Shown one piece after another: positions 11,815 to 58,146 of a stretch of DNA of 64,000 nucleotides. The stretch covers positions 13,275,001 through 13,339,000 of the forward strand of contig NC_092674.1 in assembly GCF_964355755.1 (NCBI RefSeq). The letters run 5' to 3'. The translations under genes were made by a program, and so were the position numbers. The stretch's first letter is position 1; each line of letters begins with the position of its first letter. The notes under the pieces are model-generated. The model did no database searches, had not been told where the DNA came from, and was given only the letters and a program-made list of their open reading frames with translations. The stretch is from Antedon mediterranea. Taxonomy: Eukaryota; Echinodermata; Crinoidea; Comatulida; Antedonidae.

Positions 11815-12454
11815 TTTAGATATGTACTGCTCTAATTAATGTACAACTTTTGAGAAAAGAGCTTTATAAATCTCTATAGCATAGTATAGTATAAAATAAA
11901 TTGCCATAAATAGATTGTTAAATGATACTGGTATGTACTTCTTGTATCTAATTTGTAAACAAAAAATATTATTTTAATTATAAATTTGTAATATTAAACC
12001 ATTGGACAGTGTGTGTGTGAAATATGTAAGGTACTTCCTCTATCTAATTTATAAAAAAAATAAATGTTTAATTAGACTTGTCTTTATTCATTAGGCATAA
12101 TGTGTATGTACCAGTTGTTCCAGAAACGAATGAAACACGATTATTAATAAAAGTATGAAAGCACACATAAAACGAACAATGCTTAATAGTTTTCCTAAAT
12201 ATTTAACTCAATCATCACCGTGATGAATTCGGGAAATTTGCGTCATAACATGAAATACACATAATACTCTATGATCTGAAAAAAAATGTTTATAGTGTGC
12301 TGAGTGGTGTCTATCAATTGTGTACATATAGTAACAATGTGGTCCAAGCATGAGCTCTTTTCTTTTCCTTCTAATTAATTTCATTTATTATAAGAAATTC
12401 CTTAAATTCGTGTGATAATCCCGCGATAATAATAAGTAACATCAGCAAAACTAA
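11815..12454. other. Probable retroelement 3' UTR and AT-rich DNA
   Basis: No gene. The first part likely belongs to the non-LTR remnant upstream. The rest shows nothing I can name. Confidence 0.35.
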
Positions 12455-12935
12455 ATCTATATATAAATTTACGTAAGGGCAAAATTCGGTAAATCGCGCG
12501 TTATTTCTAGAATGTTTACTCGATGGTATATAAAGTTGGTTAGAATCTCAATACTGATTTTAACCACCTGATGTAACTCTGTTTACTAATTAAATTGAGT
12601 TAGACAATTAGTTATTGACGATTAAAACGAATTTAGGTTGAACGATTTGCCCCAAATAGAGGTGTTTTCCGACCGTAGTATACACTGTCTAATAGATGTC
12701 CTCTCAAAAAATACCTGCACACAATAATACGAGGATGCTTCGCATTTTCCTATCTCCTCCTACGATAATTGTTTTTAATAGCTGAAAACCGGTTGAACAG
12801 TTCGCGTACAGTATCATAATGTTGAAGACAGGCCGATTTTCTAAAAAAAATACTATTTTAATAGATTTAATATACGTTTATACAAATGCATTGATTTGCG
12901 ATGAATGGAACATTCCAATCTCTCAGACTCCCAGT
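12455..12935 (-). repeat. Dispersed repeat, inverted partner of 2.3 kb copy
   Basis: Reverse-complement counterpart of 2,262-2,745. No open frame is conserved between the two copies, so it is probably a non-coding mobile element or part of one. Confidence 0.7.
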
Positions 12936-15545: not shown

Positions 15546-15984
15546 TTGCAGTATATATTTTATTTTGCTTAAGTTCAATCTACACTATCAAACTTTATGT
15601 GAAAAAAAAGTGATGTACCTTTTTATGGACATGATGATGTCATATCACTACCATATTTGGGCACATTACATTTTTTTTTAAATTGATGTTATCTATATTT
15701 GTTATTCAACGTATAAAATGGAACTTCGAGTAATCGCTGACGGGATAGCGACATAACATGACACTTTGCTGGATTCAATGACAGTAGGTTGGATGTAGAC
15801 CACTTTGCAATACTACTACTACGACGTACTCTTGTAATGATAAAATATCACAATCTTAGCGAACACATCTTGAAAAGAACGTGTCATCCGCGTATTGTCA
15901 GGGTTAATTTAGTAAATGTAGTTGCAAAACATAAATATTTAATATTAATGACCCTTGTGGTATTAGTGAGTTGGTTTATTTTAG
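15546..15984. other. No gene recognised
   Basis: AT-rich sequence up to the left boundary of the segmental duplication; nothing I can support. Confidence 0.35.
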
Positions 15985-16092
15985 GTATGCTATGTACGCC
16001 GGTACGCTCTTTAAATTTTAAAATTAAATATTTATTTAATCACACTGAATTATATTATAGTAACACTTATTATTAATGTTTGTAACACTTAC

Positions 16093-16191
16093 ATTTCTTG
16101 GAAGATCGAATTTAGCACCAGCCTTGAGCAAAATAGTGCAAACATCTGTGTGGCCGTTTTGTGCAGCCAAATATAAAGGTGACGCTCCATC
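16093..16191 (-). CDS. Single ankyrin-repeat exon (copy 3)
   Basis: 99 nt, phase 0, intact cag acceptor and gtaagt donor on the minus strand. It encodes DGASPLYLAAQNGHTDVCTI followed by LLKAGAKFDLPRN. It lies in the well-preserved segmental duplication and differs from the 32.2-kb copy at a few codons (for example I/V at the CTI/CTV position), with the repeat frame kept. Both splice sites being intact in both copies fits recent origin or selection. The rest of the host gene is not visible. Confidence 0.65.
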
Positions 16192-16753
16192 CTGAAACAT
16201 TACAAACATGATGTTATAGTAGTTTTCACTCTAAACAAAGTATTAATATTGTACTGAAATAAATACGATGTTATCAATTAAAAATAACGTTATGGATTCA
16301 AATAATGCTACTTTGTTAAATTAAATAAAGATTATTAACCTCTGGTGTTTACTTTAAGATAATGTATTGTATACGTATACATTGGTCTTGTTTGTATAAT
16401 ATTGTTCATATAAGTACTGTACAATTGTAAACCAAATAAGTGTTTCTTTGCCTTTATCAGGTAGTGCTGACAAGTGTAAATTATGATAAGGTGGCGTTTG
16501 AACTGGCAGTTATGACAAAAAATATAATACTAGGATCCAAATTCTGTTCAACTAAATACTTACTATTGACTTTGTTTTAGTTACTGGGCTGCAATAGTTT
16601 TTTTTTTAGTTTTTTTTTTTTTAAAGATGTTTTACTAAATCAAATTGATATATCAATTCATATCCATTTAATGTATCATTTTCATAAATAAATAATGTAG
16701 CTCTGTATAGTACAATACAATACAGAAACAGAAAAGTCACCATTCAAAAAAAA

Positions 16754-16957
16754 TCAGTCTCTAACATTCAGTGTTCTAAATGCAGATGTTAAAACTATTA
16801 CGGAATCTATTTGCACAAGGGGTGATGGACCGCTTCCTTGAACTTCAAAAATAGTACATGCGATAGGTTGGGTCTTGTTGAATCGAATGTGTTTTCTTAG
16901 TAAAGTATCTAATGATTCAAATTGAGATCTGCTTGAGATCTGCTCTGCTCGTGCCAT
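16754..16957 (-). CDS. Conserved small ORF or exon beside ankyrin unit (copy 1)
   Basis: From an ATG at 16,957 an open minus frame of 67 codons ends in a stop at 16,754. Its counterpart at 32,861-33,088 keeps the same frame despite a 24-base in-frame length difference just after the ATG. Most differences are conservative (K/R, I/V, D/E). Shared core: SRSQFESLDTLL, then HIRF, TQPIACTIFE and SGPSPLVQIDSVIVLTSAF. I do not recognise the family; there is no signal peptide or membrane segment. It lies about 560 bases 5' of an ankyrin exon in minus-strand order, so it may be an upstream exon of the same gene or an independent short gene. Confidence 0.4.
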   Translation of the reverse strand: MARAEQISSRSQFESLDTLLRKHIRFNKTQPIACTIFEVQGSGPSPLVQIDSVIVLTSAFRTLNVRD

Positions 16958-17804
16958 GTTTATACCCTTACCCTTTATTGGTCGTGCCTTTTTTAAGATC
17001 ACTAGTGATTTATTTACAATCTTCAGAGTGGGTACCGTATTAATTTCATATTGTAGGTGAGTTTACGTTATAAAATGTCTTCATTGTTTTCAATTGTTTT
17101 CACCTGCTTTGATAGAGACAATACTGTTAATAATTGTTTATTAGTAAACACATAGTGTACACAAAACCAACCTAGTGTATTTTGTGCACATAATAGTGTG
17201 TAACATTTGTAATTTAGAGCGTTTATTTGACACGACAAAGCATGTGAACTCCTGAAAACGTACAGAATCATAATAATGTAGTACATATTGAATTTTGACG
17301 TAATGATTGTTGTTGTTTTTTTAGACCACACTAAGTGGTTGGTGTAACTTCACAATAATGATAATATAATGAAACATCATATGTTAGTCACCTTAATATG
17401 GTCATTTGCCATATACAGTTGAACATTCGTGAGTGGTCACCTCCCGTAGTTTCAAAAGCCCGTTTGTTCTTCATCAAATTAGTGGACCTCCTGTAAGCAG
17501 CCATCTCATGTGAGCGGCCGCGGAACTTTTTTTTTTCTCTTTTGTGAGGTTCACTCAACTTTATTTCATTTCAAAACATAAATAAAAAATTGTATTATGT
17601 TTGTATATTATTTTTTTTAATATATACTATTTTCATTCATAGACATAAAGTTTTCTCTTACATCTAAAAAAAACTCTGCAAGATATCATTTAATTTATAC
17701 ATTTACATTACATTTAAACTGAAAACAATATCAATAAATATGGAAAATCAAAATCAACTCAATAACCGGTTGCTTGTAGAGTATAGCATTTTCTATGCTC
17801 TTTT

Positions 17805-18060
17805 TTTTTTACTCTGTGAGTAAGGAATGTAATACATTTGTTCTGAACATTAGAAATACGCCGATATTGTGTACAAGAAATTGAATTAAAAATGACTGAA
17901 CAGTATTCCGGGCGGGGGCGCACGACTGATATTAATGCTCCATCGAAAAACAACAATTTAACTTACTATCAATCAAAACTCCCAAATCCCGTTGAAAATT
18001 AACACAATCTAATTCCTGATCATTTAACTTATATTTGGTTAAAATAGGCTTTCGCTGATT
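17805..18060 (-). pseudogene. Non-LTR reverse-transcriptase fragment
   Basis: The minus frame contains RDLGVLIDSKL (about 17,965-18,000), a typical block just after the polymerase core, then after an interruption EYCSVIFNSISCTQYRRISN and VQNKCITFLT. This order marks the thumb/C-terminal part of a CR1/Jockey-type reverse transcriptase. Stops and at least one frameshift break it. It is joined abruptly to the segmental duplication at about 17,813. Confidence 0.6.
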
Positions 18061-23400: not shown

Positions 23401-24421
23401 CACGACAGTTATTACACAGTATTATGTGACGATTAAAGTGCGACAATACAAAGCGGGTTTAAAGATAGTTATTATAAGTAGAGAACATGATGGTATAGTC
23501 AGTCGTGGTTATAACAATGGTTAACAATGGGGATAGTATAAGACAATAGAGTATATCATTTCACTAGAATTGTTATATAGATTTGTTATATATTAATATA
23601 CATTATAATATAAAATTAATAAATATTAAATAAAAATGATATGGTGATTTAGTTGCTTGTGAACAAATGGTTTACAATGGTTGAAGTCAATAGGTGTTAT
23701 GTTTCGGATTATAATACAATGGTTAACATAGGGTAAGGAAGTGAGACAATAATAGTTTTTGTAAGATTTGAATTAGTCATGGATTCAATAAAGATGCACC
23801 TGGTTAATTAAAACTAGTTAATTGAGGTTTTTGCTTGATGTATGCCGACATAATACAAAGACATAAGTTATTTGATCCGGATATTATAACAATGACTAAA
23901 ACAAAAAGATAAGAATGAATAGTTAAATAGCGTTTACAGGCAAAATATAGGCAAAATTGTAAGTATTAGTCAGATGTACAAATTACTGAAAAACAAAATA
24001 TTACTAGGAAGTATGAAACAATAGGTATTGTGTTTCGGGGTATATAACAATATATGTTAAAGGTGTCTTCCGACATATAATTAATACGGGGTATTTTATA
24101 ACAAAGATAAAAATAAAAAGAAGACTATAATGAAGTGATATAATAAGTATGTCTTGCTTGATCTTTGGCGACATAATCCAAAGACATAAGGCATTTTCTT
24201 CCGGATATTTAAGATTTGAAAATAAACGTTATTTAAGTATGTACAATTAAGTAAATAAAAGGTAATCTTCTGATGTCATGCATAAATTAATTTATGTTTA
24301 AATATCGGGGGGGGGGGGAGGGGGTATTATTTGAAATTCTATGTCAGTGTTTTCAATTACATCGAAGTCACTCAAACTCTAGTACTAGTTCCAAAGTATT
24401 ACCGTTACACGAGGTTAAAAG

Positions 24422-24922
24422 ATGAATTCTAACGTGTATACCGGTAATGAACAAAAATTTGAAAACAGCAGTCTTAGCGGTAACGAGGAATTTTTGTTAG
24501 AAATTCTTGATGACAACGATGAAATGGTAAGTTGAATCAATTTGTACAAGAAAAAAAAAGAAATTTACGTATATTATTTTCAAAATGTTATTAAGATTTA
24601 ATTTGTTCTGTCTGTTACATGGGGTCTTGTTATTTAATTTTCAGATTCGATGTATAGAAGAGTTAATTGATGATCAGAACGAATTATGTAATGAAATGGT
24701 AAGTTACTATTTCTATAAATTTATTTTTAAAATGGTAATAATATATGATATTTAGTCTAATATAAACAACATTTTGTATTACAGTACGGTATTTTGATTG
24801 AAAGTAGTAATAACGAAAGGGAAGAAACACTTCAATTAGAGAATGACATGGCAGTTGCAGAAATTTGCCGCATTGCAAGAAACAAAAGAGGTAATTTAGA
24901 CGAAGAAGAAAATGATTTATGA
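24422..24922 (+). CDS. Three-exon acidic small protein (left arm, intact)
   Basis: Exon 1 24,422-24,526, exon 2 24,645-24,698 and exon 3 24,785-24,922. All junctions are phase 0 with gtaagt donors after exons 1 and 2 and tcag/acag acceptors before exons 2 and 3. The product is 98 residues, strongly acidic, with no signal peptide or membrane helix. Exon 1 ends in an acidic stretch (EILDDNDEM). Exon 2 begins IRCIEELIDD, which contains an IxCxE core with acidic neighbours, like the LxCxE pocket-binding motif of Rb-family ligands. Such motifs are short and can arise by chance. No family is recognised. The stop overlaps the next ATG (ATGA). The right-arm copy is frameshifted. Confidence 0.6.
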
Positions 24923-25104
24923 GTATGATTGCACTTCGACCAATGTTCCGACAGGAAATACAACAATGACAATTGGCTGAAACAAATTTAGTAAATGCCG
25001 AATGTAATCATTTGACTGTATATAACTCTCGATTATTTTGTAATCTTTACCTCATTCTACAACGCTACAGAGCTCGACAAGACAGACCAAAAACCAACAA
25101 CTAG
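24919..25104 (+). pseudogene. Small ORF overlapping the acidic gene (left)
   Basis: It begins at the ATG of an ATGA overlap with the acidic gene's stop. After 16 codons it meets a TGA (24,967-24,969), and then the same frame stays open to a TAG at 25,102-25,104, six bases before the next gene's ATG. The second part has a basic tail (QRYRARQDRPK). The right arm has the same TGA, so the interruption predates or was copied with the arm duplication. It may be a decayed gene or chance frame; function unknown. Confidence 0.3.
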
Positions 25105-25109
25105 TTACT

Positions 25110-25913
25110 ATGGTTTCCGTGATTGAAATCATTGATCTTACTATGGACTCTCATGTCGAAGAAGATGTTACATATATATAAGCAGTGATTCAGAATTTGA
25201 AGACGAAGACATACTAGCTATGACTGGTGCCTATTTTACAGCAGAGGAGGAGGAAGAGATGAGGGAAGAGATGGGGGATATGACGTGTTTAATGGTGATT
25301 CAACCCCCACCTCCAATGAACGTTGATTTCAATAATGTATCTAATACTGAAGAAGACGAACATTATAGATCGAGAATAATTTCTGAAGAGGAGAGGATTG
25401 TATACGACGACACGTCATCGGTAGTTGACTACCACCTATTTCTGGCAAGAAAAGCCGATATAGAAGATGAGGTAGAAGATGGGGTGTTTGCGGAAGAGTA
25501 CCTGAACCCTGTGCTGGGGATGGAAATTTAGAAAGAAACTACCGAACAATGATGAGGTGTTTACGGAAGAGTACTTGAACCCTGTGCTGGAGGCGGAAAT
25601 TAAGAAAGAAACTACCGAACTTAAGTACAAAGAAATAATGAGAACAATTGAGAAGGTTTTCAAAGAAGAATTTATATTCATTCTGAATGACATGGTTGAA
25701 CGTTATAACTTTCACGGCTCAAGATATGAGCAACTTCTAACAATTTTTCGACCAATTCTGGCATTGAAACTTGTGGACAATAGCGCTATCCATTTTGAAT
25801 GGGCGCTAAACTACTTTCATTTACGTTGTATCAATGTTGATGCGTTCGATAAAGCCATAAAGTTGATTACAAATGATTCAGAACTGTTTAATAAGATTCT
25901 TAACCAGTTGTAA
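25110..25913 (+). pseudogene. SUMO-motif gene, left copy (broken)
   Basis: Copy of the gene at 29,324-30,126. After the ATG at 25,110 the frame has the first motif (IEIIDLT). A two-base expansion in the (TA) run near 25,172-25,181 then gives an early TAA. The rest of the gene is open from about 25,181 to 25,531, where a further nonsense codon lies (TAG, near 25,530). A duplicated segment and a shift follow at about 25,550. The C-terminal part, 25,557-25,913, is open to a natural-looking TAA and is better preserved here than in the right arm. I do not recognise this C-terminal region. It is helical-looking, with FIFILNDMVERY and FHLRCINVDAFDKAIKLI. Confidence 0.55.
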
Positions 25914-25939
25914 TTTATATAAATTTAAATATTATCATA

Positions 25940-27430
25940 ACACTTTTAATTAATGTTATATATTTTTATAATTCTTATTTCTTTTCGGTAAATTTATTAT
26001 TATTATGGTTGTAAAATATATTGAAATAGAATGTGTGTTAAAATAAAGGTTGTGTGTTTTTTTTAAGGCAACAACGAAAATGAAATTTGATCTTTGCGTG
26101 GTATTTAAGTATTTGATTTATTTTTTTAATTTTAATTTGGTTGAATGAGGGTAATGAGTATGGATGAGTACATAAGAAAAGTATATTACGATCTTAAGCA
26201 TCCTGATAGTTTAGGTGGTGTGGACCGACTTTATCAAAATGTAAAAGACGATTTAAATATTACCAAGAGACAAGTTCAAGACTGACTGTGCAAGCAAGAT
26301 ACATTATACATTACACAAATCCATTCAACGTAAATTCAAACGAAACTGGGTACTTGTAAGTGCTATTGATGAACAATGGGAACTGGATTGGGAAAAATAA
26401 CGTGTTTGCAAAATCAAAGGTTTGACTTTAAAGGAAGTCAATTTTGAAATAGTTGGTAGCATGGTACGGGTACTAATCCTAACAAAATAACCCGTAAACC
26501 AAAATCTAGCTTAATATTTATTTTATATTATAAATTTGTAAAAGTAGTTACCATATTTTAATTTATGGTAAATTTATTTTTCGAATTAATTTAATTTGTT
26601 TTCTTTTCTGTTGAATTTTTATTATTATTATGTTTGTAAAGTGTATTGCAATAGATTTGTTTAATGAAATAAATTAATTATGTTTTGACTTAATTTATGT
26701 CAGTGTAAATTTGTAAAAGTAGTTTCCCTATTTTAATTCATGATAAATTTATTTCTTTTCTGTTAAAGTTTTATTATTATTATTATGTTTTGTAAAGTGT
26801 ATTACAATAGAATGTGTATTTCAATAAATTTTGTTTTTAACATCAACAACAAAAATGAAATTTTATCTTTGCGTGTTGTTTAATTCGTGTATGATGTTTT
26901 TCTAATTTATTTATAAAAAAAACAAAAATTGACTTTAAATTTCAAAAAGTCAAAGGAATTCAATTTTGAAATAGTTAGTAGCATGGTACAAGGAATCGAC
27001 AAGGAAAAAATAACAACAATTAATTTAATTTAATTCTTCTTTTCTGTGGAATTATTATTATTATTATTATTATTATTATGTTTGTGAAGTGTATTGCAAT
27101 AGATTTGTTTAATGAAATAAGTTAATTATGTTTTGACTTAATTTATGTCAGTGTAAATTTTGTAAAAGTAGTTTTCCTATTTTAATTCATGGTAAATTTA
27201 TTTCTTGACTTAATTTAATTAGTTATCTTTTCTGCTGTTATATATATGTTTTTTAAGGTGTAGTGCAATAGAATGTGTATTGAAATAAATTTTGTTTTTA
27301 ACAGCAACAATAAAAATGAAATTTGATCTTTGCGTGTTATTTAATTCCTGTATGATGTTTTTCTAATTTATTTCTACAAAAAGAAAACACATTTTTGAAT
27401 TTGTTAAATGTAATTGCAAACACGCATAAT
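25940..27430 (+). repeat. Tandem degenerate 3'-UTR-like modules
   Basis: About five modules recur from 25,940 to 27,430. Each contains tggtaaatttatttctt-like, tattattatgtttgtaaagt, attgcaatag and, in the longer copies, aaataaattttgtttttaac and aatgaaatttgatctttgcg. Each has an AATAAA-type polyadenylation word. They span the arm/spacer junction, so module duplication extends into the unique spacer. Confidence 0.65.
26145..26470 (+). pseudogene. Maverick-type integrase N-terminal fragment (left arm)
   Basis: From an ATG at 26,145 the frame gives MDEYIRKVYYDLKHPDSLGG, then VDRLYQNVKDD, and stops at a TGA at 26,283-26,285. Shifted frames continue with KFKRNWVLVSAIDEQWELDW. This N-terminal helix-turn-helix-like segment leading into the start of the rve core (the AIDEQW aspartate) is the integrase family of Maverick/Polinton elements and related chromosomal genes. 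The catalytic core beyond the first aspartate is missing. Both arms carry the same stop. Confidence 0.65.
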
Positions 27431-28479
27431 AAATGATTGTGATTAAAAATATTCTGTTTACTTCTTTTATTTTAAACAGTAGGTCTATAATGTAAAGTTA
27501 TATTTTATAATATAATAAGTAATATTACAAAAATAAACATACACAATGTATAATGCATATATTTATTACATTTAAATACAATTTTTTTATTTCAAAATGA
27601 ATTTCATATTCTACGTGTTTTTCAATTTTAAATCTTTTAAGAAAGACACAATACGTACTGCTAAAAAAAAAACACGATATGTAACGACGGTTTCAATAAA
27701 AAGTCATATTATAAATGTATTTTTACCAAATTTATAAAGTAAAGGGTTATTATTGAGAAATATACATTTTAGATAAATGATAACACATCTAAAATTAATT
27801 AGAGAGATCAATACAATATGGTGTTCATAATAATTTGTTTTGATGACTAGAGGAAACATCTGAAGACATTCAACAAAAAACAAGCGTTAACACCATACCA
27901 GTCACTAAGAATGCTACTACTCTGAAAAAAACATCTCCCTTCCTGCACACAAAAATTAAAATAATTAGTAAACGAAACACGCGCATTTTAAATAAAATGA
28001 ATAATTTAAGAATATTTGTTAAAATACCCACGAACAAAAAAAAAAGAAACATACTAACCGATTCATCGTCATTACGAAGTTCAAATAACGAAAACTTTTC
28101 CTTGAAAAATCCACAAGAGACACGTTTTACATTTTCTAACTGCATTTCAGTGTCACATTGTTTCGCAACACATGTACATACAACGAGTCCTGTCACAAGT
28201 CTGCCGAAATTTATTTTTTTATCGCTCATCATTTGTTCTAATACATAATACAGCGCTTCCGAAGAAATATCTTTACACAATTCTAACACATTAAAATTGT
28301 TTTCCAACTCTTTACAAGCACGAATAGTACTCTGGAGGATGGGTGAATCCAAAACAATTAACCCCGTCAATTTATATTAAATGTATGCTAAAACTACTTC
28401 CTCTAAATCAACCATAACGCTCGACAAAACAAATGATAATGGATGTAATTACCATGAAAGTTACAACTTAAAACATTTT
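26759..28479. other. Unique spacer of the palindrome
   Basis: 1,721 bases not duplicated in inverse. The left part (to about 27,430) is made of the tandem 3'-UTR-like modules. 27,430-27,869 is AT-rich and would be the 3' side of the Bcl-2-like gene, which fills most of the remainder on the minus strand. Confidence 0.7.
27870..28331 (-). CDS. Bcl-2-like protein, partial gene model
   Basis: A 91-codon exon (28,331-28,059) lies between a tccag acceptor and a gttagt donor. It contains MMSDKKINFGRLVTGLVVCT then CVAKQC, which matches the BH1 pattern of Bcl-2/Mcl-1-type apoptosis regulators (acidic-x-x-x-x-N-[FW]-G-R-[IV]-V). IRACKELENNF upstream sits where BH3 would be but lacks its usual Gly-Asp. 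After the intron a last exon reads GDVFFRVVAFLVTGMVLTLV to a TGA at 27,870, a hydrophobic tail like the family's membrane anchor. Keeping that frame needs the second AG (27,939), not the first. Unspliced read-through is also open. No BH2 is clear. No in-frame ATG lies upstream of this exon before a stop, so the first exon is not found. Confidence 0.5.
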   Translation of the reverse strand, partial: STIRACKELENNFNVLELCKDISSEALYYVLEQMMSDKKINFGRLVTGLVVCTCVAKQCDTEMQLENVKRVSCGFFKEKFSLFELRNDDESVSMFLFFLFVGILTNILKLFILFKMRVFRLLIILIFVCRKGDVFFRVVAFLVTGMVLTLVFC

Positions 28480-28767
28480 AAAGAAATAAATTTATCATGA
28501 ATTAAAATAGGGAAACTACTTTTACAAATTTACACTGACATAAATTAAGTCAAAACATAATTAATTTATTTCATTAAACAAATCTATTGCAATACACTTT
28601 ACAAACATAATAATAATAAAAATTCAACAGAAAAGAAAACAAATTAAATTAATTCGAAAAATAAATTTACCATAAATTAAAATAGGGTAACTACTTTTAC
28701 AAATTTATAATATAAAATAAATATTAAGCGAGATTTTGGTTTACGGGTTATTTTGTTAGGATTAGTA

Positions 28768-29093
28768 CCCGTACCATGCTACCAACTATTTCAAAATTGA
28801 CTTCCTTTAAAGTCAAACCTTTGATTTTGCAAACACGTTATTTTTCCCAATCCAGTTCCCATTGTTCATCAATAGCACTTACAAGTACCCAGTTTCGTTT
28901 GAATTTACGTTGAATGGATTTGTGTAATGTATAATGTATCTTACTTGCACAGTCAGTCTTGAACTTGTCTCTTGGTAATATTTAAATCGTCTTTTACATT
29001 TTGATAAAGTCGGTCCACACCACCTAAACTATCAGGATGCTTAAGATCGTAATATACTTTTCTTATGTACTCATCCATACTCATTACCCTCAT
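28768..29093 (-). pseudogene. Maverick-type integrase N-terminal fragment (right arm)
   Basis: Mirror of 26,145-26,470. The ATG is at 29,093 and the TGA at 28,955-28,953, followed by the same shifted remnant. Because stop and shift are shared, the integrase was already dead when the arms were duplicated, or gene conversion has kept them alike. Confidence 0.65.
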
Positions 29094-29323
29094 TCAACCA
29101 AATTAAAATTAAAAAAATAAATCAAATACTTAAATACCACGCAAAGATCAAATTTCATTTTCGTTGTTGCCTTAAAAAAACACACAACCTTTATTTTAAC
29201 ACACATTCTATTTCAATATATTTTACAACCATAATAATAATAAATTTACCGAAAAGAAATAAGAATTATAAAAATATATAACATTAATTAAAAGTGTTAT
29301 GATAATATTTAAATTTATATAAA

Positions 29324-30126
29324 TTACAACTGGTTAAGAATCTTATTAAACAGTTCTGAATCATTTGTAATCAACTTTATGGCTTTATCGAACGCATCAA
29401 CATTGATACAACGTAAATGAAAGTAGTTTAGCGCCCATTCAAAATGGATAGCGCTATTGTCCACAAGTTTCAATGCCAGAATTGGTCGAAAAAAATGTTA
29501 GAAGTTGCTCATATCTTGAGCCGTGAAAGTTATAACGTTCAACCATGTCATTCAGAATGAATATAAATTCTTCTATGAAAACCTTCTCAATTGTTCTCAT
29601 TATTTCTTTGTACTTAAGTTCGGTAGTTTCTTTCTTAATTTCAGCCTCCAGCACAGGGTTCAGGTACTCTTCCGTAAACACCTCATCATTGTTCGGTAGT
29701 TTCTTTCTTAATTTCCGCCTCCAGCACAGGGTTCAGGTACTCTTCCGCAAACACCCCATCTTCTACCTCATCTTCTACATCGGCTTTTCTTGCCAGAAAT
29801 AGGTGGTAGTCAACTACCGATGACGTGTCGTCGTATACAATCCTCTCCTCTTCAGAAATTATTCTCGATCTATAATGTTCGTCTTCTTCAGTATTAGATA
29901 CATTATTGAAATCAACGTTCATTGGAGGTGGGGGTTGAATCGCCATTAAACACGTCATATCCCCCATCTCTTCCCTCATCTCTTCCTCCTCCTCTGCTGT
30001 AAAATAGGCACCAGTCATAGCTAGTATGTCTTCGTCTTCAAATTCTGAATCACTGCTTATATATATAACATCTTCTTCGACATCAGAGTCCATAGTAAGA
30101 TCAATGATTTCAATCACGGAAACCAT
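29324..30126 (-). pseudogene. SUMO-motif gene, right copy (front intact)
   Basis: From the ATG at 30,126, 146 codons are open to a TGA at about 29,686. Residues 5-11 (IEIIDLT) and about 20-28 (VIYISSDSE) are two closely spaced hydrophobic cores followed by acidic/Ser residues. This is the pattern of tandem SUMO-interacting motifs in proteins such as SUMO-targeted ubiquitin ligases. The rest is very acidic, with a Pro run (IQPPPPMNVDF). A direct duplication of about 70 bases (the EEYLNPVLEAEIKKETTE unit) causes the stop at the unit junction. The second unit is in another frame, with a further one-base shift in a T run near 29,493. No RING domain is visible. Function in the element is unknown; a nuclear SUMO-pathway partner is inference. 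Confidence 0.55.
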
Positions 30127-30131
30127 AGTAA

Positions 30132-30317
30132 CTAGTTGTGGGTTTTTGGTCTGTCTTGTCGAGCTCTGTAGCGTTGTAGAATGAGGTAAAGATTACAAAA
30201 TAATCGAGAGTTATATACAGTCAAAGGATTACATTCTGCATTTACTAAATTTGTTTCAGCCAATTGTCATTGTTGTATTTCCTGTCGGAACATTGGTCGA
30301 AGTGCAATCATACTCAT
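30132..30317 (-). pseudogene. Small ORF overlapping the acidic gene (right)
   Basis: Mirror of 24,919-25,104. ATG at 30,317 overlaps the acidic gene's stop, with the same TGA at codon 17 and the same final TAG at 30,134-30,132. A few substitutions differ between copies. Function unknown. Confidence 0.3.
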
Positions 30318-30816
30318 AAATCATTTTCTTCTTCGTCTAAATTACCTCTTTTGTTTCTTGCAATGCGACAAATTTCTGCAACTGCCATGTCATTCTCTAA
30401 TTGAAGTGTTTCTTCCCTTTCGTTATTACTACTTTCAATCAAAATACCGTACTGTAACACAAAATGTTGTTTATATTAGACTAAATATCATATATTATTA
30501 CCATTTTAAAAATAAATTTATAGAAATAGTAACTTACCATTTCATTACATAATTCGTTCTGATCATCAATTAACTCTTCTATACATCGAATCTGAAAATT
30601 AAGTAACAAGACCCCATGTAACAGACAGAACAAATTAAATCTTAATAACATTTTGAAAATAATATACGTACATTTCTTTTTTTTTCTTGTACAAATTGAT
30701 TCAACTTACCATTTCATCGTTGTCATCAAGAATTTCTAACAAAAATTCCTCGTTACCGCTAAGACTGCTCTGTTTTCAAATTCTTGTTCATTACCGGTAT
30801 GCACGTTAGAATTCAT
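30314..30816 (-). pseudogene. Three-exon acidic gene, right copy (frameshifted)
   Basis: Exons 30,816-30,710, 30,591-30,538 and 30,451-30,314, with the same splice sites as the left copy. Exon 1 carries two extra bases near 30,769-30,772, which bring a stop before the donor. Exons 2 and 3 are otherwise like the left copy (one codon difference seen in exon 3). It appears to be a recent loss. Confidence 0.65.
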
Positions 30817-31829
30817 CTTTTAACCTCGTGTAACGGTAATACTTTGGAACTAGTACTAGAGTTTGAGTGACTTCGATGTAATTGAAAACACTGACATAGA
30901 ATTTCAAATAATACCCCCTCCCCCCCCCCCACCCCGATATTTAAACATAAATTAATTTATGCAGGACATCAGAAGATTACCTTTTATTTACTTAATTGTA
31001 CATACTTAAATAACCTTTATTTTCAAATCCTAAATATCCGGAAGAAAATGCCTTATGTCTTTGGATTATGTCGCCAAAGATCAAGCAAGACATACTTATT
31101 ATATCACTTCATTATAGTCTTCTTTTTATTTTTATCTTTGTTATAAAATACCCCGTATTAATTATATGTCGGAAGACACCTTTAACATATATTGTTATAT
31201 ACCCCGAAACACAATACCTATTGTTTCATACTTCCTAGTAATTTGTTTTTCAGTAATTTGTACATCTGACTAATACTTACAATTTTGCCTATATTTTGCC
31301 TGTAAACGCTATTTAACTATTCATTCTTATCTTTTTGTTTTAGTCATTGTTATAATATCCGGATCAAATAACTTATGTCTTTGTATTATGTCGGCATACA
31401 TCAAGCAAAAACCTCAATTAACTAGTTTTAATTAACCAGGTGCATCTTTATTGAATCCATGACTAATTCAAATCTTACAAAAACTATTATTGTCTCACTT
31501 CCTTACCCTATGTTAACCATTGTATTATAATCCGAAACATAACACCTATTGACTTCAACCATTGTAAACAATTTGTTCACAAGCAACTAAATCACCATAT
31601 CATTTTTATTTAATATTTATTAATTTTATATTATAATGTATATTAATATATAACAAATCTATATAACAATTCTAGTGAAATGATATACTCTATTGTCTTA
31701 TACTATCCCCATTGTTAACCATTGTTATAACCACGACTGACTATACCATCATGTTCTCTACTATTATATATGAGATTTTTTTTTTTTTCAAGACAGTTTA
31801 TCAGGAACCGATCCATATTTTGTTCTTTC

Positions 31830-32092
31830 TTGAGTAAAGTTTCGGGATCATTAATTTGACAAATAATAGTTCTTTGGTGAGATCTTGCTTGGAAGTTTCC
31901 AGGTCTCGGGGTTTAAATGACCGCGACTTTTAAACTATCATTGGTTGATCTAACTGCCCAATGTCAAGATTAACCTTGACGAAGTAGCGGTGTTCCGAAC
32001 CATGTTAGGGGTACAACCGTGCAGTTCTCGACAATACAGTAATCCTCGATACAAAATATGAAATGATATATGACCCGCAATGTGAGTTGGTT
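31830..32092 (-). pseudogene. Non-LTR fragment beside ankyrin copy 4
   Basis: Diverged counterpart of 3,305-3,595, including the taatttgacaaataa and cgcgactt...aaactatc words and the gcaatgtgagttggttcattt edge that joins the ankyrin block. It is not open in any long frame. The non-LTR assignment comes from the other copy and is tentative. It begins about 70 bases right of the palindromic element. Confidence 0.35.
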
Positions 32093-32193
32093 CATTTAGG
32101 TATGCTATGTACGCCGGTATGCTCTTTAAATTTTAAAATTAAATCACATTGAATTATATAGTAACACTTATTATTAATGTTTGTAACACTTAC

Positions 32194-32292
32194 ATTGCTT
32201 CGAAGATTCAATTTAGCACCAGCCTTGAGCAAAACAGTGCAAACATCTGTGTGGCCGTTTTGTGCAGCCAGATATAAAGGTGACGCTCCATC
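32194..32292 (-). CDS. Single ankyrin-repeat exon (copy 4)
   Basis: 99 nt, phase 0, intact cag acceptor and gtaagt donor on the minus strand. Encodes DGASPLYLAAQNGHTDVCTV then LLKAGAKLNLRSN. Very similar to copy 3, with changes concentrated at the variable end of the repeat (KLNLRSN against KFDLPRN), which in ankyrin proteins is the loop side. This could reflect drift or selection. The neighbouring exons needed for a full protein are not seen. Confidence 0.65.
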
Positions 32293-32696
32293 CTGAAACA
32301 TTACAAACATGATGTTATAGTAGTTTTCACTCTAAACAAATTATTAATATTGTACTGAAATCAATACGATGTTATCAATTAAAAATAACGTTATGGATTC
32401 AAATAATGCTACTTTGTTAAATTAAATAAAGATTATTAACCTCTGGTGTTTACTTTAAGATAATAGATTGTATACGTATACATTTGTTTTGCTTGTATAA
32501 TATTGTTCATATAAGTACTGTACAAATGTAAACCATATAAGTGTTTCTTTGCCTTTATCAAGTAGTGCTGACGAGTGTAAATTATGATAAGGTGGCGTTA
32601 GAACTGGCAGTTATGACAAAAAATATTATACTAGGATTCAAATTCTGTTCAACTAAATACTTACTATTGACTTTGTTTTACTTACTGGGCTGGAAT

Positions 32697-32734
<38 letters not shown>

Positions 32735-32860
32735 TGTTTTACTAAATCAAATTGATATATCGATTCATATCCATTTAATGTATCATTTTCATAAAATAAA
32801 TAATGTAGCTCTGTACAGCACAATACAATACAGAAACAGAAAAGTCACCATTGAAAAAAA

Positions 32861-33088
32861 TCATTCTCTAACATTCAGTTTTCTAAATGCAGATGTTAAA
32901 ACTATTACGGAATCTATTTGCACAAGGGGTGATGGACCGCTTCCTTGAATTTCAAAAATAGTACATGCGATAGGTTGGGTCTTGTAAAATCGAATGTGTT
33001 TTTTTAGTAAAGTATCTAATGATTCAAATTGAGATCTGCTTGAGGTCTGCTCTGCTCGTTTGAGTTCAAACGTGTCATTTTGTGCCAT
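32861..33088 (-). CDS. Conserved small ORF or exon beside ankyrin unit (copy 2)
   Basis: From an ATG at 33,088 the frame is open for 75 codons to a stop at 32,861. It keeps the reading frame and most residues of 16,754-16,957 and has eight extra codons after Met-Ala (QNDTFELK). Conserved core: SRSQFESLDTLL, then HIRF, TQPIACTIFE and SGPSPLVQIDSVIVLTSAF. Basic in the first half, hydrophobic in the second; no family recognised. Related but decayed sequence occurs at 60,220-60,440, and a fragment at about 5,060-5,100. Confidence 0.4.
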   Translation of the reverse strand: MAQNDTFELKRAEQTSSRSQFESLDTLLKKHIRFYKTQPIACTIFEIQGSGPSPLVQIDSVIVLTSAFRKLNVRE

Positions 33089-34029
33089 GTTTTTCCCTTA
33101 CCATTTATTGGTCGTGCCATTTTTAAGATCACTAGTGATTTATTTACAATCTTCAGAGTGGGTACCGTATTAATTTCATATTGTAGGTGAGTTTACGTTA
33201 TAAAATGTCTTAATTGTTTTCAATTGTTTTCACCTGCTTTGATAGAGACAATACTGTTAATAATTGTTTATTAGTAAACACATAGTGTACACAAAACCCA
33301 CCTAGTGTATTTGTGCACATAATAGTGTGTAACATTTGTAATTTAGAGCGTTTAATTGACACGATAACGCATGTGAACTCCTGAAAACGTACAGAATCAT
33401 AATAATGTAGTACATATTGAATTTTGACGTAATGATTGTTGTTGTTTTTTTAGACCACACTAAGTGGTTGGTGTAACTTCACAATAATGATATAATGAAA
33501 CATCATATGTTAGTCACCTTAATAATGGTCATTTGCCATATACGATGATTTAAAAATTCAGAGTTTTAATATTATAGTATTACAGTTGAACATTCGTGAG
33601 TGGTCACCTCCCGTAGTTTCAAAAGCCCGTTTGTTCTTCATCCAATTAGTGGACCTCCTGTAAGCAGCCATCTCATGTGAGCGGCCGCGGAAATTTTTTT
33701 TTTCTCTTTTTTGAGGTTCACTCAACTTTATTTCATTTCAAAACATAAATAAACAATTTTCCTATGTTTGTATATTATTTTTTTTAATATATACTATTTT
33801 CATTCATAGACATAAAGTTTTCTCTTACATCTAAAAAAAACTCTGCAAGATATCAGTTATACATTTACATTACATTTAAACTGAAAACAATATCAATAAA
33901 TATGGAAAATCAAAAGCAACTCAATAACCGGTTGCTTGTAGAGTATAGCATTTTCTATGCTCTTTTTTTTTTACTCTTCTTTTTATTGTTTTTCCCTTTT
34001 TTTTCTTCTTTTTTCTGTTTTATTTGCAC

Positions 34030-37129: not shown

Positions 37130-37499
37130 GCCTAGAAGTAATTATACTTCAAATATACACCCGATTCTGCTACTGTCCACAGGTGCTATCTTTAAAACTA
37201 TAGCAAGTTATACACGTTGTTGTCTGCTATAAATGCTGTACTTTTAACACACGGTACACTGTCTGTAGCACAGTGTGTGTTGACAATTTACAATGATGTA
37301 CAACCATAGGCAGGTTTTCGTACTGCCATGCAAGAATGGATAGGTGTTTTCCGCCGCTTTTAGGCCTTCTAGTCAGTTATTGTTATTATTATACGAATTA
37401 CGTAATTGGTCTAGTAGCTCATCTACCTTTTTAGCAGGGCATAATGAATATTGTAGCTAGGCTAGGGCTACTAGTCTAGCGGAAAATCAACCAATTATT

Positions 37500-38080
37500 T
37501 GGTTGGATACGAGTTTAGGGTAGGAAGTTAAGTACGAGTTGGCATGGGTACGAGACGACCAGGGGTGAATCGACCAGAGTACACCCGGCTGCCCTACTAG
37601 AGCATAGGCTACAGGCCTGCAGGAATGGGAAATCTGTCTTAGCTATAGGCATAGGCCTACATTGGGACGCCCAAAAAAGCCATCATATGAGCATAAAAAG
37701 GCCTCGTAGAGCCAGACATGTTAACATACACTACACAGTACTAGTACGTCTACCATTTATTATAGTTCCATGGTACTACGGATCACTACTATCTAGGTCT
37801 AGTAGTAGTAGTAGGCTAGCTAGGGTAGGGTTCCAGTAATTTTGGTCGCGTTTTTTCAGGAGGGCATGCGAGAGGTGAGGTAGGTTAGCCCAGCTAGGCT
37901 AAACTAACATGTAAGTAGTATTCTACCATGGGATGGGAACGAGTCGGCATGGGGGTACGGGTTGATCTTTATCCGTATTCTATGATGCTGGTCAACCCGT
38001 AAAGTACCCATGTCAACTCGTACCAAACTTGGCTAACTCGTACCCAAATAATTGGTCAACTCGTACCAATAGCTTTATAG
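37500..38080 (+). repeat. Degenerate GTACGAGTTGRC array, left arm
   Basis: Many copies of a 12-14 base motif on both strands (gtacgagttggc, caactcgtacc, caacccgtacc) are spaced irregularly by about 20-30 bases. The mirrored array is at 43,030-43,310, where it has more copies. Confidence 0.65.
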
Positions 38081-38619
38081 CTTTATTGATAGCTGGGTTC
38101 AAATCTAGTTTGGGACGTTTTTTTCTCATTCTAAAACAGATTTCCTTATAATAATAAAATAATATCGACCTATGAATTTAACTGTAATATTGTATTGTAT
38201 GCATAATATTAGTAGTAAAAGTAATTCCCATTGAATTTATTATTATAATATATTTTACGGTAACCCCTTAATTATACTATAGTATAACTTCCTTGTTATA
38301 TTTTACAATATTTTCTTCATAATTCAACAATTTTTTTTCACAGCTAATTATCAAACTGAATCATCACACACCAAATCTCATGAAATCTCTAGTGTATTTC
38401 TCCAAGCTAATCCAGCTACATGGTATTGCCTTGAGGCTAAACTACACTGTATACTGGGCACTACCATCATTCCTGGCCCGTCAACCTGGACCACATTATG
38501 GTCCAACACAGTCGTGTAGTACTGATTCCAAATAGTGAATTACATCCTGTGGTCAAGGATTTATTTGCACTTATGCTTATTTCCTCCAACATACCGTAGA
38601 GTACGTAGGGCTTTTAATT

Positions 38620-39490
38620 TGCTTTTATACCTGTTAATTAAAAAATCGTTTATGCCTATTGTTGCATAAAGATCAAATTTAGACTGTAAATACTGGGATG
38701 ATCACCCTACATTTTCTTTTTCATTTAACAATTTTATATTTCACAGCCAGAAAAAAGCATACAGAGTTTTTTTATTCATAACTGTTGAATTGCATCCCAA
38801 TACATGGTACCTATTGGTATTATATCTATAATAATAAAGTACTCTCTTATAAATAGATCTTTCCAAACCACTCCAACTACATAATCTAATAATAGTACTA
38901 TTAGCATACTACTGTACACTTTGTAGACAAGAAATAAGTTGTATCCACCTAGATGACTTATGTTAGTATTGTACAGTCGATCGTCCTCTCACTAGTCTGG
39001 TCAACATAATCTACGCCTAGATTATTACAGTAATTAAAGTACATTATTACAGAGATTTTTTTTTTCAGAAATCAAAGTTATGTGTATAGAAAGCAGTACT
39101 CGTATTAAAAACTAAGCAGGTTGTACTCTTGAACGCCAGCTGGCAGGAATATTTTGAATATTTGTTGTTGTTGAAATGATGGAATCCTAACTTCAATTTC
39201 CACGAACTGGAGACGAAGACATATTACGACCCTTTTATTTAAATTTATTTGGATAGACATCCATGTAAATTCATTAAAGGCTATATGATTGTTTTATATT
39301 TTAATATGTGATAGTAGAAAATCATTGTGTATAATGAGGACTATGAATCTGATATTTACTTGCATTCTCATCTTTTTAAAATTTTATTTATAATGCTGGT
39401 AATGAATTTACTATTGAAAAAGTCATGTGTCCACTTATCTCAAATTGTGGCACACCTCTAACCTTGGTAGAACTGACTGTGTTCTATATG
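38620..39490 (+). repeat. Arm-specific segment of the second palindrome
   Basis: About 870 bases present only in the left arm. The right arm joins the flanking sequences directly near 42,475-42,490. It is either an insertion here or a deletion there. No terminal repeats or coding frame were seen. Confidence 0.5.
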
Positions 39491-42400
39491 AGTACATTTA
39501 ATTTGCCATTATAGTAGTGTTTCCACCATACTTGAACCTGGTAATTGAATACATTTCATCGGGGTAAAATTATCACCTTTAACATAAAGTATCCTCCTGA
39601 AACATGTATTTGTACTGTACTTCATCTACTATTCATTTAATTACTTAATACTAATTTGGGTGATTTATGTCTAACTTCAGGAATGATCTGAGGCTAGAAG
39701 AACGAATTTCTGCACATATAGTTTATATAAAAAATAAACCAATGTTTTCCTAAAAAGTTAACCCCTAGGTTGATAACTAACAAAGAAATTATTAAAATTG
39801 TGTTCTCACAATATATGTGTACTGTATCTACATATGCATACTGCTGTACTTGTTTTTAACCGCATAATGGCATTTAAAAAAAAGAATGTTTTATAATTAT
39901 TATGTTATTTCCAAATATTAAAGGTCTGAAACAGAAACTAAATGTTACCAAACTATGTTTTTGAAAATCTCTATGATATAATATAATAATATGAACATAA
40001 TATTAAATTATATTGACTATTTTTGATAATCGTCATGTCCTTATAAATTCATTTATATTTCTTTTGTGTAATATAGTTCATATATTATGTATTAAATAAA
40101 TTGGTAAGGCCCTATACTGTTTATATTTAAGGAAAGTTTATTATACACTATTATTTTATGCCTACCAATATTAGTATTAATTGTTTATGTAACTATTTTG
40201 TCTAATTGCATTGATTTTTTGTATAGGCCAATGGAATTAATGTTTTCTCAAATCAAATTAGCCTATTATAATGCCATATTTAGACACATAGATCATTGAT
40301 TTCTGATATTCTGTACTTGTGTATGCATTACTAAAATAGTAGATATTTTATTTCATTTATAATGTATGTATAAACTTTTATTCAGTTTTTTTTTACATTT
40401 TTAAGTTTAAAAATTATTAGAATACCTATCTACGTTTCTGTTATTGTTACTATTATAATATTTTTTGAGGCAGATTGATTTCATTAAAAACATTTTAAAC
40501 AATTAATTTGATTTATACTGTACTATGTTAGTTCAGGAGATGAAGTGTGTGTTGGTAGAATCTGGTGTGTTGGAGGTTGGTGATGTGAGGTGTACTTTTG
40601 TCACTTTAAGACCTAAATTAGATGTTTTCTGAAGAAAAGTGGATAGGATTTCAAACAACTCCAAGAAGATTCACACAAAAATAATTACTTCCCAATAAAA
40701 TAGTATGTAACAGTGTATATTACACTACATTGAATAAACTCGAGCGGAAAAATAACACACATAAAAATCATTAATTTCCTTGTCGAAAAGCGCCCTCTCT
40801 AGTTTTCTATTAATTTATTAATAATTATTATTAATTAATAAGTAATATAAACTTATTTTTAACATTAATGCTGGAAGCTGATTCTACTCCTAACAAGGTG
40901 TCATACCTCCAAATTTCGTCAACGTATTCAAAGCACTTCAATAAATATCACATTGAACATTAAAAATTAGGGTTATGGATAGAATTTTGCTTAAAAACAT
41001 ATACAAAAAACATCGATAAAAAATACTTTTCGAATTTAAAAACATTTGAAACTTCTTTTATATGTTCAATATAGGTTGCTCTATTCACAGAAACAAAATT
41101 TCATTCATGAACGTTTTTTGTTGGTTGTTTTTTTCAAAATCGTTATTAGGTTTAAAAAATGCATTGGAATTGTATGGTCTTTCATAAGTGTACATTTTGT
41201 AAAAACTTAAATTTAAAAAAACAGTAATATGGCTCGATAGTTTTTTTTTGCAATATGGATGGAGCAACCTATATTGAACATTTATACCAAGTATCAAATG
41301 TTTTTGAATACGAAAACTATTTTTTATCGATGTTTTTTGTATATGTTTTAAGCAAAATTCTATCCAAAACCCTAATTTGTAATGTTCAATGTGATATTTA
41401 TTGAAGTGCTTTGAATACGTTGATGAAATTTGGAGGTATGAAACTTTGTTTGGAGTCGAATCAGCTTCAAGCATCAAATGTTAAAAATATGTTTATATTA
41501 CTCATTAATTAATAATAATTATTAATAAATTAATAGAAAACTAGAGAGGGCGCTTTTCGACAAGGAAATGAATGTTTTTTTATGTGTGTTATTTTTCTGC
41601 TCGAATTCATTCAATGTACTTTAATATACACTATTACATACTATTTTATTGGGAAGCCTATTCGCTTCAGAAATCAATGAATTATGTGTCTAAATATGGC
41701 ATTATTAGGCTAATTTGCTTTGAGAAAAACATTAATGCCATTGGCCTATACAAAAAATCAATGCAATTAGACAAAATAGTTACATAAACAATTAATACTA
41801 ATATTGGTAGGCATAAAATAATAGTGTATATAAACTTTCCTTAAATATAAACAGTATAGGGCCTTACCGATTTATTTAATACATAATATATGAACTATAT
41901 TACACAAAAGAAATATAAATGAATTTATATTATAAGGACATGATGATTATCAATATAATTTAATATTATGTTCATATTATTATATTATATCATAGATATT
42001 TTCAAAAACATAGTTTAGTAACATTTAGTTTCTGTTTCAGACCTTTAATATTTGGAAATAACCTACAGTATAATAATTATAAAACATTCTTGTTTTCAAT
42101 GTCATTATGCGGTTAAAAACAAGTACAGCAGGATGCATATGTAGATACAGTACACCTATATATTGTGAGAACATAATTTCTATAATTTCTTTGTTAGTTA
42201 TCAACCTAGGGGTTAAATTATTAGGAAAACATTAGTTTATTTTTTATATGTGTACAGAAATTCGTTCTTCTAGCCTCAGATCATTCCTGAAGTTAGACAT
42301 AAATCACATAAAATAGTATTAAGTAATGGATATTAGATGAAGTACAGTACAAATACATGTTTCAGGAGGATACTTTATGTTAAAGGTGATAATTATTTTA

Positions 42401-43029
42401 AATGTTACCCCAATGAAATGTATTCAATTACCAGGTTGAAGTAGTATGATGGAAACACTACTATATGTACTCATGTACGTACTCTGTATGTTAGAGGAAA
42501 TAAGCATAAGAGAAAATAAAGCCTTGACCACAGGATGGAATCAGTAGTACACGACTGTACTTATGTGTGGGCTAGGAATGATGGTAGTGCCAGTATACAG
42601 TTTAATTTAGCAATACCATGTAGCTGCATTAGCTTGCAGAAATACAGTAGAATGATTTCATGAGACTTGGTGTGTGATGATTCAGTATGATAATTTGTGC
42701 TGTGAAAAAAAAAATTGCTGAATTATGAAGAAAATATTGTAAAATATAACAAGGAAGTTATACTATAGTTACTATAATTAAGGGGTAACCGTAAAATATA
42801 TAATAATAATAATAAATGCTATGGGAATTACTAATATTATGTAAACAATACAATATTAAGTTAAATTCATAGGCCGATATTATTTTATTATTATAAGGAA
42901 ATCTGTTTTTGAATGAGAAAAAGCCGTCCCAACCCAGATTTGAACCCAGTATCAATAAAGCTATAAACAGAATAGACCGGAATTTAGCGTAGACCTACTC
43001 GAGGCCTAGTAAGATTAGCTAGAAGAATA

Positions 43030-43310
43030 CAGGTCAACCCGTACCAATTCCAACTCGTAACCAAATTTTGGTTTATTCGTACCCAAAATGTTGGCTCACT
43101 CTCGCAATCATCAAGGGCTGGCTCGTACTCTTCATGGGCTGACCAGTATCCATGTTTAATGCTATTAAAAGTTTGGGTACAGGTTAGCCAAAGTTGGTAC
43201 GATTTGACCAATTATTTGAGTACGGGTTAGCCAAATTGGGTACGAGTTGGCATGGGGGTTGACCAGCACCCTAGAAAATGATAAGGGTCAACCCGTACCA
43301 CTGTGCCAAC
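43030..43310 (-). repeat. Degenerate GTACGAGTTGRC array, right arm
   Basis: Mirror of the left-arm array with extra copies (for example at 43,075, 43,197, 43,221 and 43,240). Its expansion is one cause of arm-length asymmetry. Confidence 0.65.
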
Positions 43311-58115: not shown

Positions 58116-58146
58116 AATTATTACTATATAATTATTTTTCTTTTAC

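Follow-up and report, generated by a model that had tools for sequence, protein, structure and literature searches.

Long inverted arms in a crinoid genome: a family of palindromic Maverick derivatives with a proposed fold-back origin

How does a Maverick-like element come to consist mostly of one long palindrome? The question is raised by a locus of the crinoid Antedon mediterranea, within a 64,000-nt stretch of NC_092674.1 (positions 13,275,001–13,339,000; hereafter the window, numbered from its first base). A first-pass annotation, made from the letters alone, described an 8.3-kb element with AG...CT ends, an ATTATA duplication and an inverted repeat covering 79% of its length, related it to Mavericks (Polintons), and proposed that it may be an integrated snap-back or defective-type genome that kept only one end plus an accessory gene. 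Our analysis indicates that the element is probably a non-autonomous Maverick derivative from a lineage whose genome is palindromic. Snap-back copying is supported as the origin of that lineage, by a mechanism that we infer, and the copy in the window is best read as a descendant, an old palindrome of fold-back origin whose centre is partly gone on one side.

The element spans 23477–31762 (8,286 bp) and is flanked by direct copies of ATTATA at 23471–23476 and 31763–31768. Its left arm (23477–26758, + strand) and right arm (28480–31762, − strand) are 98.8% identical over 3,289 alignment columns. The MAFFT alignment of the arms, taken up to 26758, contains 27 substitutions and 17 gap columns, 4 of which lie at the arm edge. 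An inverted match of this quality over 3.3 kb is far beyond chance, and the two 3.28-kb arms make up 79% of the element, so that arm alignment and flanks bear out the description in the first-pass annotation. The termini, AGTAGAGAAC on the left and GTTCTCTACT on the right, are of the AGT type (AGTAG...CTACT). For vertebrate Mavericks, the accessible part of one report (PMC8097293) gives an AGT-type end motif and, for intact elements, terminal repeats of 46–1,447 bp (mean 402), 6-bp duplications and lengths of 12.7–24.6 kb. The window element has the ends and the 6-bp duplication of a Maverick, and its arms exceed terminal inverted repeats of the usual size. The ten-base end AGTAGAGAAC was tried as a family marker and dropped, as it occurs 298 + 330 times genome-wide compared with 376 + 400 times for its reversed control. 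The end feature common to the copies is the shorter AGTAG.

Coding remnants point to the same relationship. A Maverick integrase remnant in two frames lies at 26160–26388 (+). Its 26226–26388 portion corresponds to residues 1–54 at 73–82% identity (tblastn, with the integrase reading of the ordinary relative C4c as query), and 26160–26225 was read by eye. The mirror remnant occupies 28850–29078 (−; 29012–28850 by tblastn, the remainder by mirror position). Directly after the left integrase remnant comes a C-terminal remnant of polymerase B (26390–26530, +), assigned by eye in the window; tblastn finds a polymerase B tail at the matching position in the relatives L058, L059, L060, L061 and L069. 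A second C-terminal polymerase B piece follows at 26917–27018 (+; tblastn, 68% over 34 aa, E = 2e-7). The Maverick core set of polymerase B, integrase, ATPase, protease and capsid is represented in the window by these integrase and polymerase remnants only, in agreement with the loss of core genes claimed earlier. Across the family, the palindrome arms likewise retain remnants only: the integrase to residue 56, the polymerase tail, the start of the ATPase and a Bcl-2-like gene. With all 38 candidates scored, no match to the C4c capsid-like protein falls within a palindrome or inverted pair.

The same genome also contains ordinary Mavericks. C4c (C4:32733800–32747714), whose genes were read in separate pieces, encodes polymerase B (in two frames split by a stop), an A32-type ATPase, an adenovirus-type protease and an integrase with a chromodomain, all above Pfam cut-offs, together with a capsid-like open reading frame (ORF) of 438 aa that has no Pfam match and is named by position and size only. 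A gene for a PC4-type transcription coactivator lies beside its right end (L020 571–1125, C4:32746327–32746881; PF02229, E = 8e-15). The terminal repeats of C4c and of a second ordinary element, C4b, measure just 0.54–0.57 kb, and the idea that long gene-bearing repeats are the normal ends of the family was dropped for this reason. The outermost part of the window arm (23477–23929, +; mirrored at about 31310–31762) is the equivalent of such a short terminal repeat. These 453 bp are 95.2% identical to both ends of C4c, and from 23492 on the arm matches C4b at 96.0% (left end) and 93.5% (right end). With ends common to a full element of the same genome, the window element would count as a non-autonomous Maverick derivative. 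The first-pass annotation had suggested looking for full-length relatives with the same end; C4c is an ordinary relative of this kind, and the Maverick relationship that the annotation proposed holds on ends, duplications, gene remnants and ordinary relatives alike.

The window element has many relatives. The genome searched comprises 354 Mb in 18 contigs, and match counts are lower bounds, with 40 of 71 candidates scored for the terminal kilobase, 40 of 84 for the rest of the arm and 40 of 100 for the spacer between the arms. There are at least 67, 156 and 136 matches, respectively. The module of gene 2 (described below) and integrase, from window position 25551 onwards, is present in at least 41 copies by hand count, 28 of which form 14 inverted pairs and 13 of which are unpaired. 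Left and right sides were compared in 16 related elements, picked by likeness to the ends and arms of the window element. Inverted arms of at least 1.7 kb are found in 14; the two others are C4b and C4c. The inverted pairs and the long-armed elements are overlapping and not identical sets: the pairs at C5:16.96 and C1:5.66 Mb are known from match positions only, and C1b and C3d do not carry the module. Measured over the longest blocks, the arms of a single palindromic element are 97.1–99.9% identical, and identity between different elements averages 96–97% (range 92–100%, three stretches). The count of palindromic forms that the annotation had suggested establishes that the palindromic Maverick is a multicopy family at many sites of the genome. 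Polymerase matches form inverted pairs at C3:21.75 (inside C3d), C9:16.69 and C3:21.95 Mb, and as fragments with stops at C5:3.33 Mb, which suggests that there are further palindromes that carry polymerase sequence; ends and outer arms were checked for C3d only.

Ten palindromic elements, window included, have an exact 6-bp duplication and AGTAG at both ends. The duplications are ATTATA in the window, CATTCA in C10, CTTGTG in C8a, CGTGTC in C8b (six-base reading by eye), AATGTT in C1b, ACCATG in C4a, GATGAA in C3c, TAAAAG in C3d and, read by eye, ATTATT in C9 and AAACAT in C3b. The ends of C6 and C3a lie outside the fetched sequence and hence outside this count; in C7 and C1c the arm edge does not coincide with an AGTAG end and revealed no duplication. 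Among the ordinary elements, C4b has TATACT, and five of six bases match in C4c. With a duplication of its own for each element, the palindromes demonstrably occupy different sites as units. The C10 copy additionally carries an insertion of about 3.77 kb within its right terminal region (C10:17606627–17610393).

The duplications also bear on how real the palindromes are. Faulty long reads are known to produce palindromes, and hairpin reads could have been collapsed into an apparent inverted repeat. Such an artefact is very improbable here, since in ten elements the symmetry ends at the element's own termini, with 6-bp duplications and unlike host flanks; in addition, the arms have private differences and the centres are asymmetric in different ways. 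We regard a nested or head-to-head insertion of two Mavericks as extremely improbable. Copies do sometimes adjoin one another, as at C3:23.74–23.77 Mb, but two joined elements should leave inner terminal repeats, and the centres of the window element, C3b and C6 showed none.

Two of the palindromes are close to perfect. Compared over 12,298 bp, C3b (C3:21243348–21255993; 12,646 bp between ends) and its reverse complement differ at three positions per arm and in a central loop of 30 nt (21249656–21249685). C6, of which 11.77 kb was fetched, is palindromic about the same 30-nt loop with slightly more arm differences. In these elements the start of the packaging-ATPase gene (residues 17–76) adjoins the loop on both sides, just outside it. 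C3b and C6 have the form of a fold-back genome, with one end present twice around a hairpin-like centre; the window element has a 1.72-kb asymmetric spacer. The centre of C3c (L079, C3:23763344–23768381) folds differently: as judged by eye, a loop of about 70 nt is flanked on either side by an extra inverted stretch of about 100 bp.

These centres address the possibility that one end of an element recombined over the other, long repeats growing around a unique middle as in some large DNA viruses. Inverted end duplications of this kind are known from poxvirus ends. The accessible part of a cytomegalovirus study (PMC2885757) describes a case of a replaced end, and the window element, C10 and C8a do have a central stretch lacking a mirror copy. 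However, C3b and C6 have no unique middle, only the 30-nt loop, and share that loop at different sites, which makes end replacement quite improbable as an account of the family.

The remaining elements relate the near-perfect palindromes to the copy in the window. C7, C3a, C8a, C10 and the window element have related arms, and each pair ends at unequal distances from the centre. Counted from C6:14682780, the arms reach 1,402 (left) and 1,052 (right) in C7, and 850 (with a gap) and 631 in C3a; the right arm of C8a reaches 1,266 and its left arm stops at window position 28313. In window coordinates, the arms of C10 extend to 28312 (left) and 27576 (right), and those of the window element to 28479 and 26758. 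The unequal ends identify the spacers as arm sequence left on one side, and such centres are as expected from one-sided central deletion. The window spacer (26759–28479) is found within both arms of C6, C7, C3a and C3b. It contains no block repeat of the arms, only some partly repeated sequence and one Bcl-2-like ORF. At the central junction (28479–28480) left-arm sequence meets the right arm with no clear microhomology by eye.

The snap-back claim of the first-pass annotation can thus be divided. A fold-back origin of the lineage is supported by C3b, C6 and their 30-nt loop, and the window locus does not itself look like a single integrated snap-back genome. An element folded independently from a single-armed parent shortly before it integrated would explain why the window arms differ by only ~1% and why both element ends are present. 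The 13 unpaired module copies could be such parents, and the polymerase pairs at C3:21.75, C9:16.69 and C3:21.95 Mb suggest repeated fold-back in the wider family. We nevertheless consider an independent event unlikely, because the spacer is arm sequence elsewhere and because C10 has the same composite arm of genes 1 and 2, in a palindrome with a different duplication. A change of affinity at the same place in both window arms (see below) also argues against it, though a chimaeric single-armed parent would yield the same pattern.

Common descent is further indicated by the composition of the arms. The genome searches scored every candidate for the polymerase (46) and for the capsid-like protein of C4c (38), and 121 of the 573 integrase candidates. 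By our count at least 11 loci, possible helpers, have open frames for a polymerase of at least 1,318 aa, a capsid-like protein of at least 441 aa and an integrase of at least 366 aa; none is among the listed terminal-repeat matches, so that common ends with the window element are shown for none of them. Among the integrase matches listed are 15 full-length and a few partial Maverick integrases, distant retroelement-like matches, and at least 28 short N-terminal fragments, which end at residue 56 in 24 cases, at 57 in one, at 62 in one and at 45–46 in two. Paired as well as unpaired copies include fragments ending at residue 56. The polymerase tail (residue 176 of the second C4c frame) comes directly after the integrase piece and on the same strand in several relatives, whereas in C4c integrase and polymerase are on opposite strands. 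This makes the fusion an inversion-type join that marks common descent. The arms of C8a, C4a and the 14.7-Mb C9 copy include PC4 residues 3–38, and PC4 sits at the right end of C4c. The outer arm accordingly reads as right-end material, followed by the polymerase tail, the Bcl-2-like gene, the ATPase start and the fold.

The window arm combines material of both ordinary ends. Gene 1, a small gene with three putative exons and GT-AG introns read by eye (24422–24922, +; mirrored at about 30316–30818, −), belongs to the left end: the region 24253–24817 is a 90% match to the left ends of C4b and C4c. The integrase start belongs to the right end. The claim that the locus is itself one snap-back genome with a single end kept is not supported by this result, nor by a multicopy palindrome, a fusion common to relatives, a mosaic with the same switch in both arms and a centre with the look of a deletion.

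Three features, namely the common loop, the inversion-type fusion and the centres kept on one side, are consistent with template switching and hairpin priming in the course of copying by strand displacement. Under this model, an ordinary Maverick would have been undergoing protein-primed strand-displacement copying when a strand, copied inward from the right end as far as integrase codon 56, jumped at the polymerase tail to the opposite strand and continued past the Bcl-2-like gene into the packaging-ATPase gene. There it would have folded back at the loop of about 30 nt and copied itself out to the terminus, giving a full palindrome with the same end twice. Two retained ends could have allowed replication, integration and perhaps packaging by enzymes that full Mavericks of this genome supply, and so have let the palindrome reach many sites. 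Long hairpins would form from displaced single strands and allow arm mismatches to be corrected, so that the arms stay alike. The centre would then decay by one-sided deletions; in the window, the left arm continues to 28479 and the right arm was kept only from the point matching 26758. The chemistry of this scheme would be that generally known from protein-primed linear genomes. Template switching, hairpin correction and help in trans are all steps that we infer.

The arms also differ in base composition. GC skew is +0.245 in the left arm of the window element and −0.247 in the right arm; its absolute value is always below 0.21 in 55 host windows of 1 kb. The outer 1.96 kb of C4c, the sole ordinary relative examined, gives +0.274 and −0.246, the same in sign and size as the window arms. 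One-way strand-displacement copying inward from each end may be the cause of these opposite skews.

The arms of the window element form a mosaic. The outer arm (24931–25470) is closest to C10 and C8b (98.7–99.1%), the inner arm (25625–26507) to the 7.44-Mb C5 copy (98.2–98.3%) and then to C1c, with about 95% identity to most others, and the spacer (27577–28312) to C8a (98.5%). The affinity switches at one and the same point in each arm. Such agreement implies that recombination in one arm was copied to the other or that it preceded a new doubling.

Gene 2 encodes an acidic protein (25110–25913, +, from the ORF list with the start placed by eye; mirrored at about 29328–30126, −). Both window copies are disrupted, the left by a frame change and a stop and the mirror copy by a stop within a 73-bp repeat. 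In 27 arm copies aligned to the window, the last 118 codons contain no in-frame stop. The pooled pairwise ratio of nonsynonymous to synonymous substitution rates (dN/dS) in this part is about 0.27 (17 sequences, 136 pairs), compared with 0.60 for the N-terminal part of gene 2 (16 sequences) and 0.70 for the Bcl-2 piece (11 sequences), all from non-independent pairs, with extra bases of relatives removed and recombination present. These values hint at purifying selection on the C-terminal part of gene 2. A broader proposal, which we put forward tentatively and at slightly less than even weight, is that a DNA virus with protein-primed replication gave rise, through a folded-back genome, to a stable and self-perpetuating satellite lineage in the host germ line. 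In this view palindromes would be inherited and multiply in that form, hairpin intermediates would hold their arms alike, and they would persist on account of gene 2, a small gene under purifying selection, after loss of the replication and capsid genes.

The Bcl-2-like ORF of the spacer (27870–28376, −) probably has an intron, and immediately upstream of the open stretch lies an in-frame stop. Its match to PF00452 (E = 2.4e-5, 25 bits) is below the curated cut-off of 31 bits, and its best match in the Protein Data Bank is a fowlpox Bcl-2-like protein at a weak E of 0.06. A protein search with the ORF gave no match at E = 0.001 among 99 candidates. The frame is open at the position of the window stop in C6, C7, C3a and the right arm of C8a, and both C7 arms have a stop in the Bcl-2 piece. 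Viral-contig scans that used the Bcl-2 piece or the capsid-like protein of C4c as query yielded no relative that could be confirmed, and Rfam at gathering thresholds gave no match.

Several observations weigh against a single fold-back ancestor maintained by helper elements. The integrase fragment ending at residue 56 also occurs in unpaired copies and may be older than the palindrome, and 13 of the at least 41 module copies listed are unpaired. Gene 1, which in the window element and C10 lies between the terminal repeat and gene 2, is not explained by the simple model. The two-switch route is rebuilt from end products, and other orders of events could yield the same arms. The way in which the compared elements were picked makes 14 of 16 a biased rate. 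Trees of three regions group both arms of an element as sisters in 3 of 6, 6 of 10 and 3 of 7 testable elements. Several of the failures involve near-identical copies; the window element and C1c also fail in the outer region, where the C1c arms differ by 3.8%. Full elements with window-like ends have broken frames, in the C4b capsid and at the C4c polymerase stop.

The rest of the window contains other repeats. A second, older large inverted repeat at 37158–44071 consists of gapped blocks of 82–90% identity and ends in CACCCGATTCTGCTACTG, unlike Maverick ends. An inverted pair with 89% identity (2270–2739 and 12454–12921) is separated by 9.7 kb. One copy of a direct repeat of about 1.9 kb (15966–17815 and 32082–33977; 92%) lies about 300 bp to the right of the Maverick-like element. 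Retroelement ORFs at 50686–51297 and 53199–58142 (−) were named by eye as a Penelope-like reverse transcriptase, integrase- and gag-like ORFs and a LINE-type reverse transcriptase.

Cultures of linear DNA viruses are known to yield snap-back and inverted-end genomes, whose persistence and evolution in nature have so far been hard to ask about. Here, many integrated copies of varied arm divergence stand beside full Mavericks, so that the sequence gives access to how palindromic viral DNA forms, spreads, has its arms corrected and decays at the centre. The family suggests that viral DNA folded back by accident while being copied and that the product turned into a mobile element passed on by inheritance. 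It would also give indirect support to the view that Mavericks are copied as linear DNA with displaced single strands, and it places near-perfect multi-kilobase palindromes (12.3 kb compared and 12.6 kb between ends in C3b) within a chromosome-scale assembly. Among the literature matches listed, which consist of titles and the beginnings of abstracts and leave subscription papers outside their coverage, we found no description of a palindromic Maverick.

The closest parallels each share part of this architecture. Adenovirus SYREC and inverted-end defective genomes are linear, protein-primed and carry one end twice in inverse orientation. They resemble the palindromes in the inverse duplicate end and differ in being particles from culture, in contrast to the integrated, multicopy palindrome described here. 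Foldback elements and other non-autonomous DNA transposons have large inverted repeats with little or no unique middle; the large inverted repeats are shared, whereas the elements studied here have a Maverick parent, Maverick ends and arms that contain genes. Foldback inversions in yeast, which arise via single-strand hairpins according to the accessible part of PMC7467729, are similar in their hairpin-mediated inverted duplication and differ in being chromosomal rearrangements that involve no mobile element. Mavericks and adintoviruses share AGT-type ends and 6-bp duplications with the family, and C4c supplies the chromodomain integrase, polymerase B, ATPase and protease; the palindromic elements depart from them in arms of 3.3 to about 6.3 kb, in the loss of the core genes and, in the window, in a total length of 8.3 kb.

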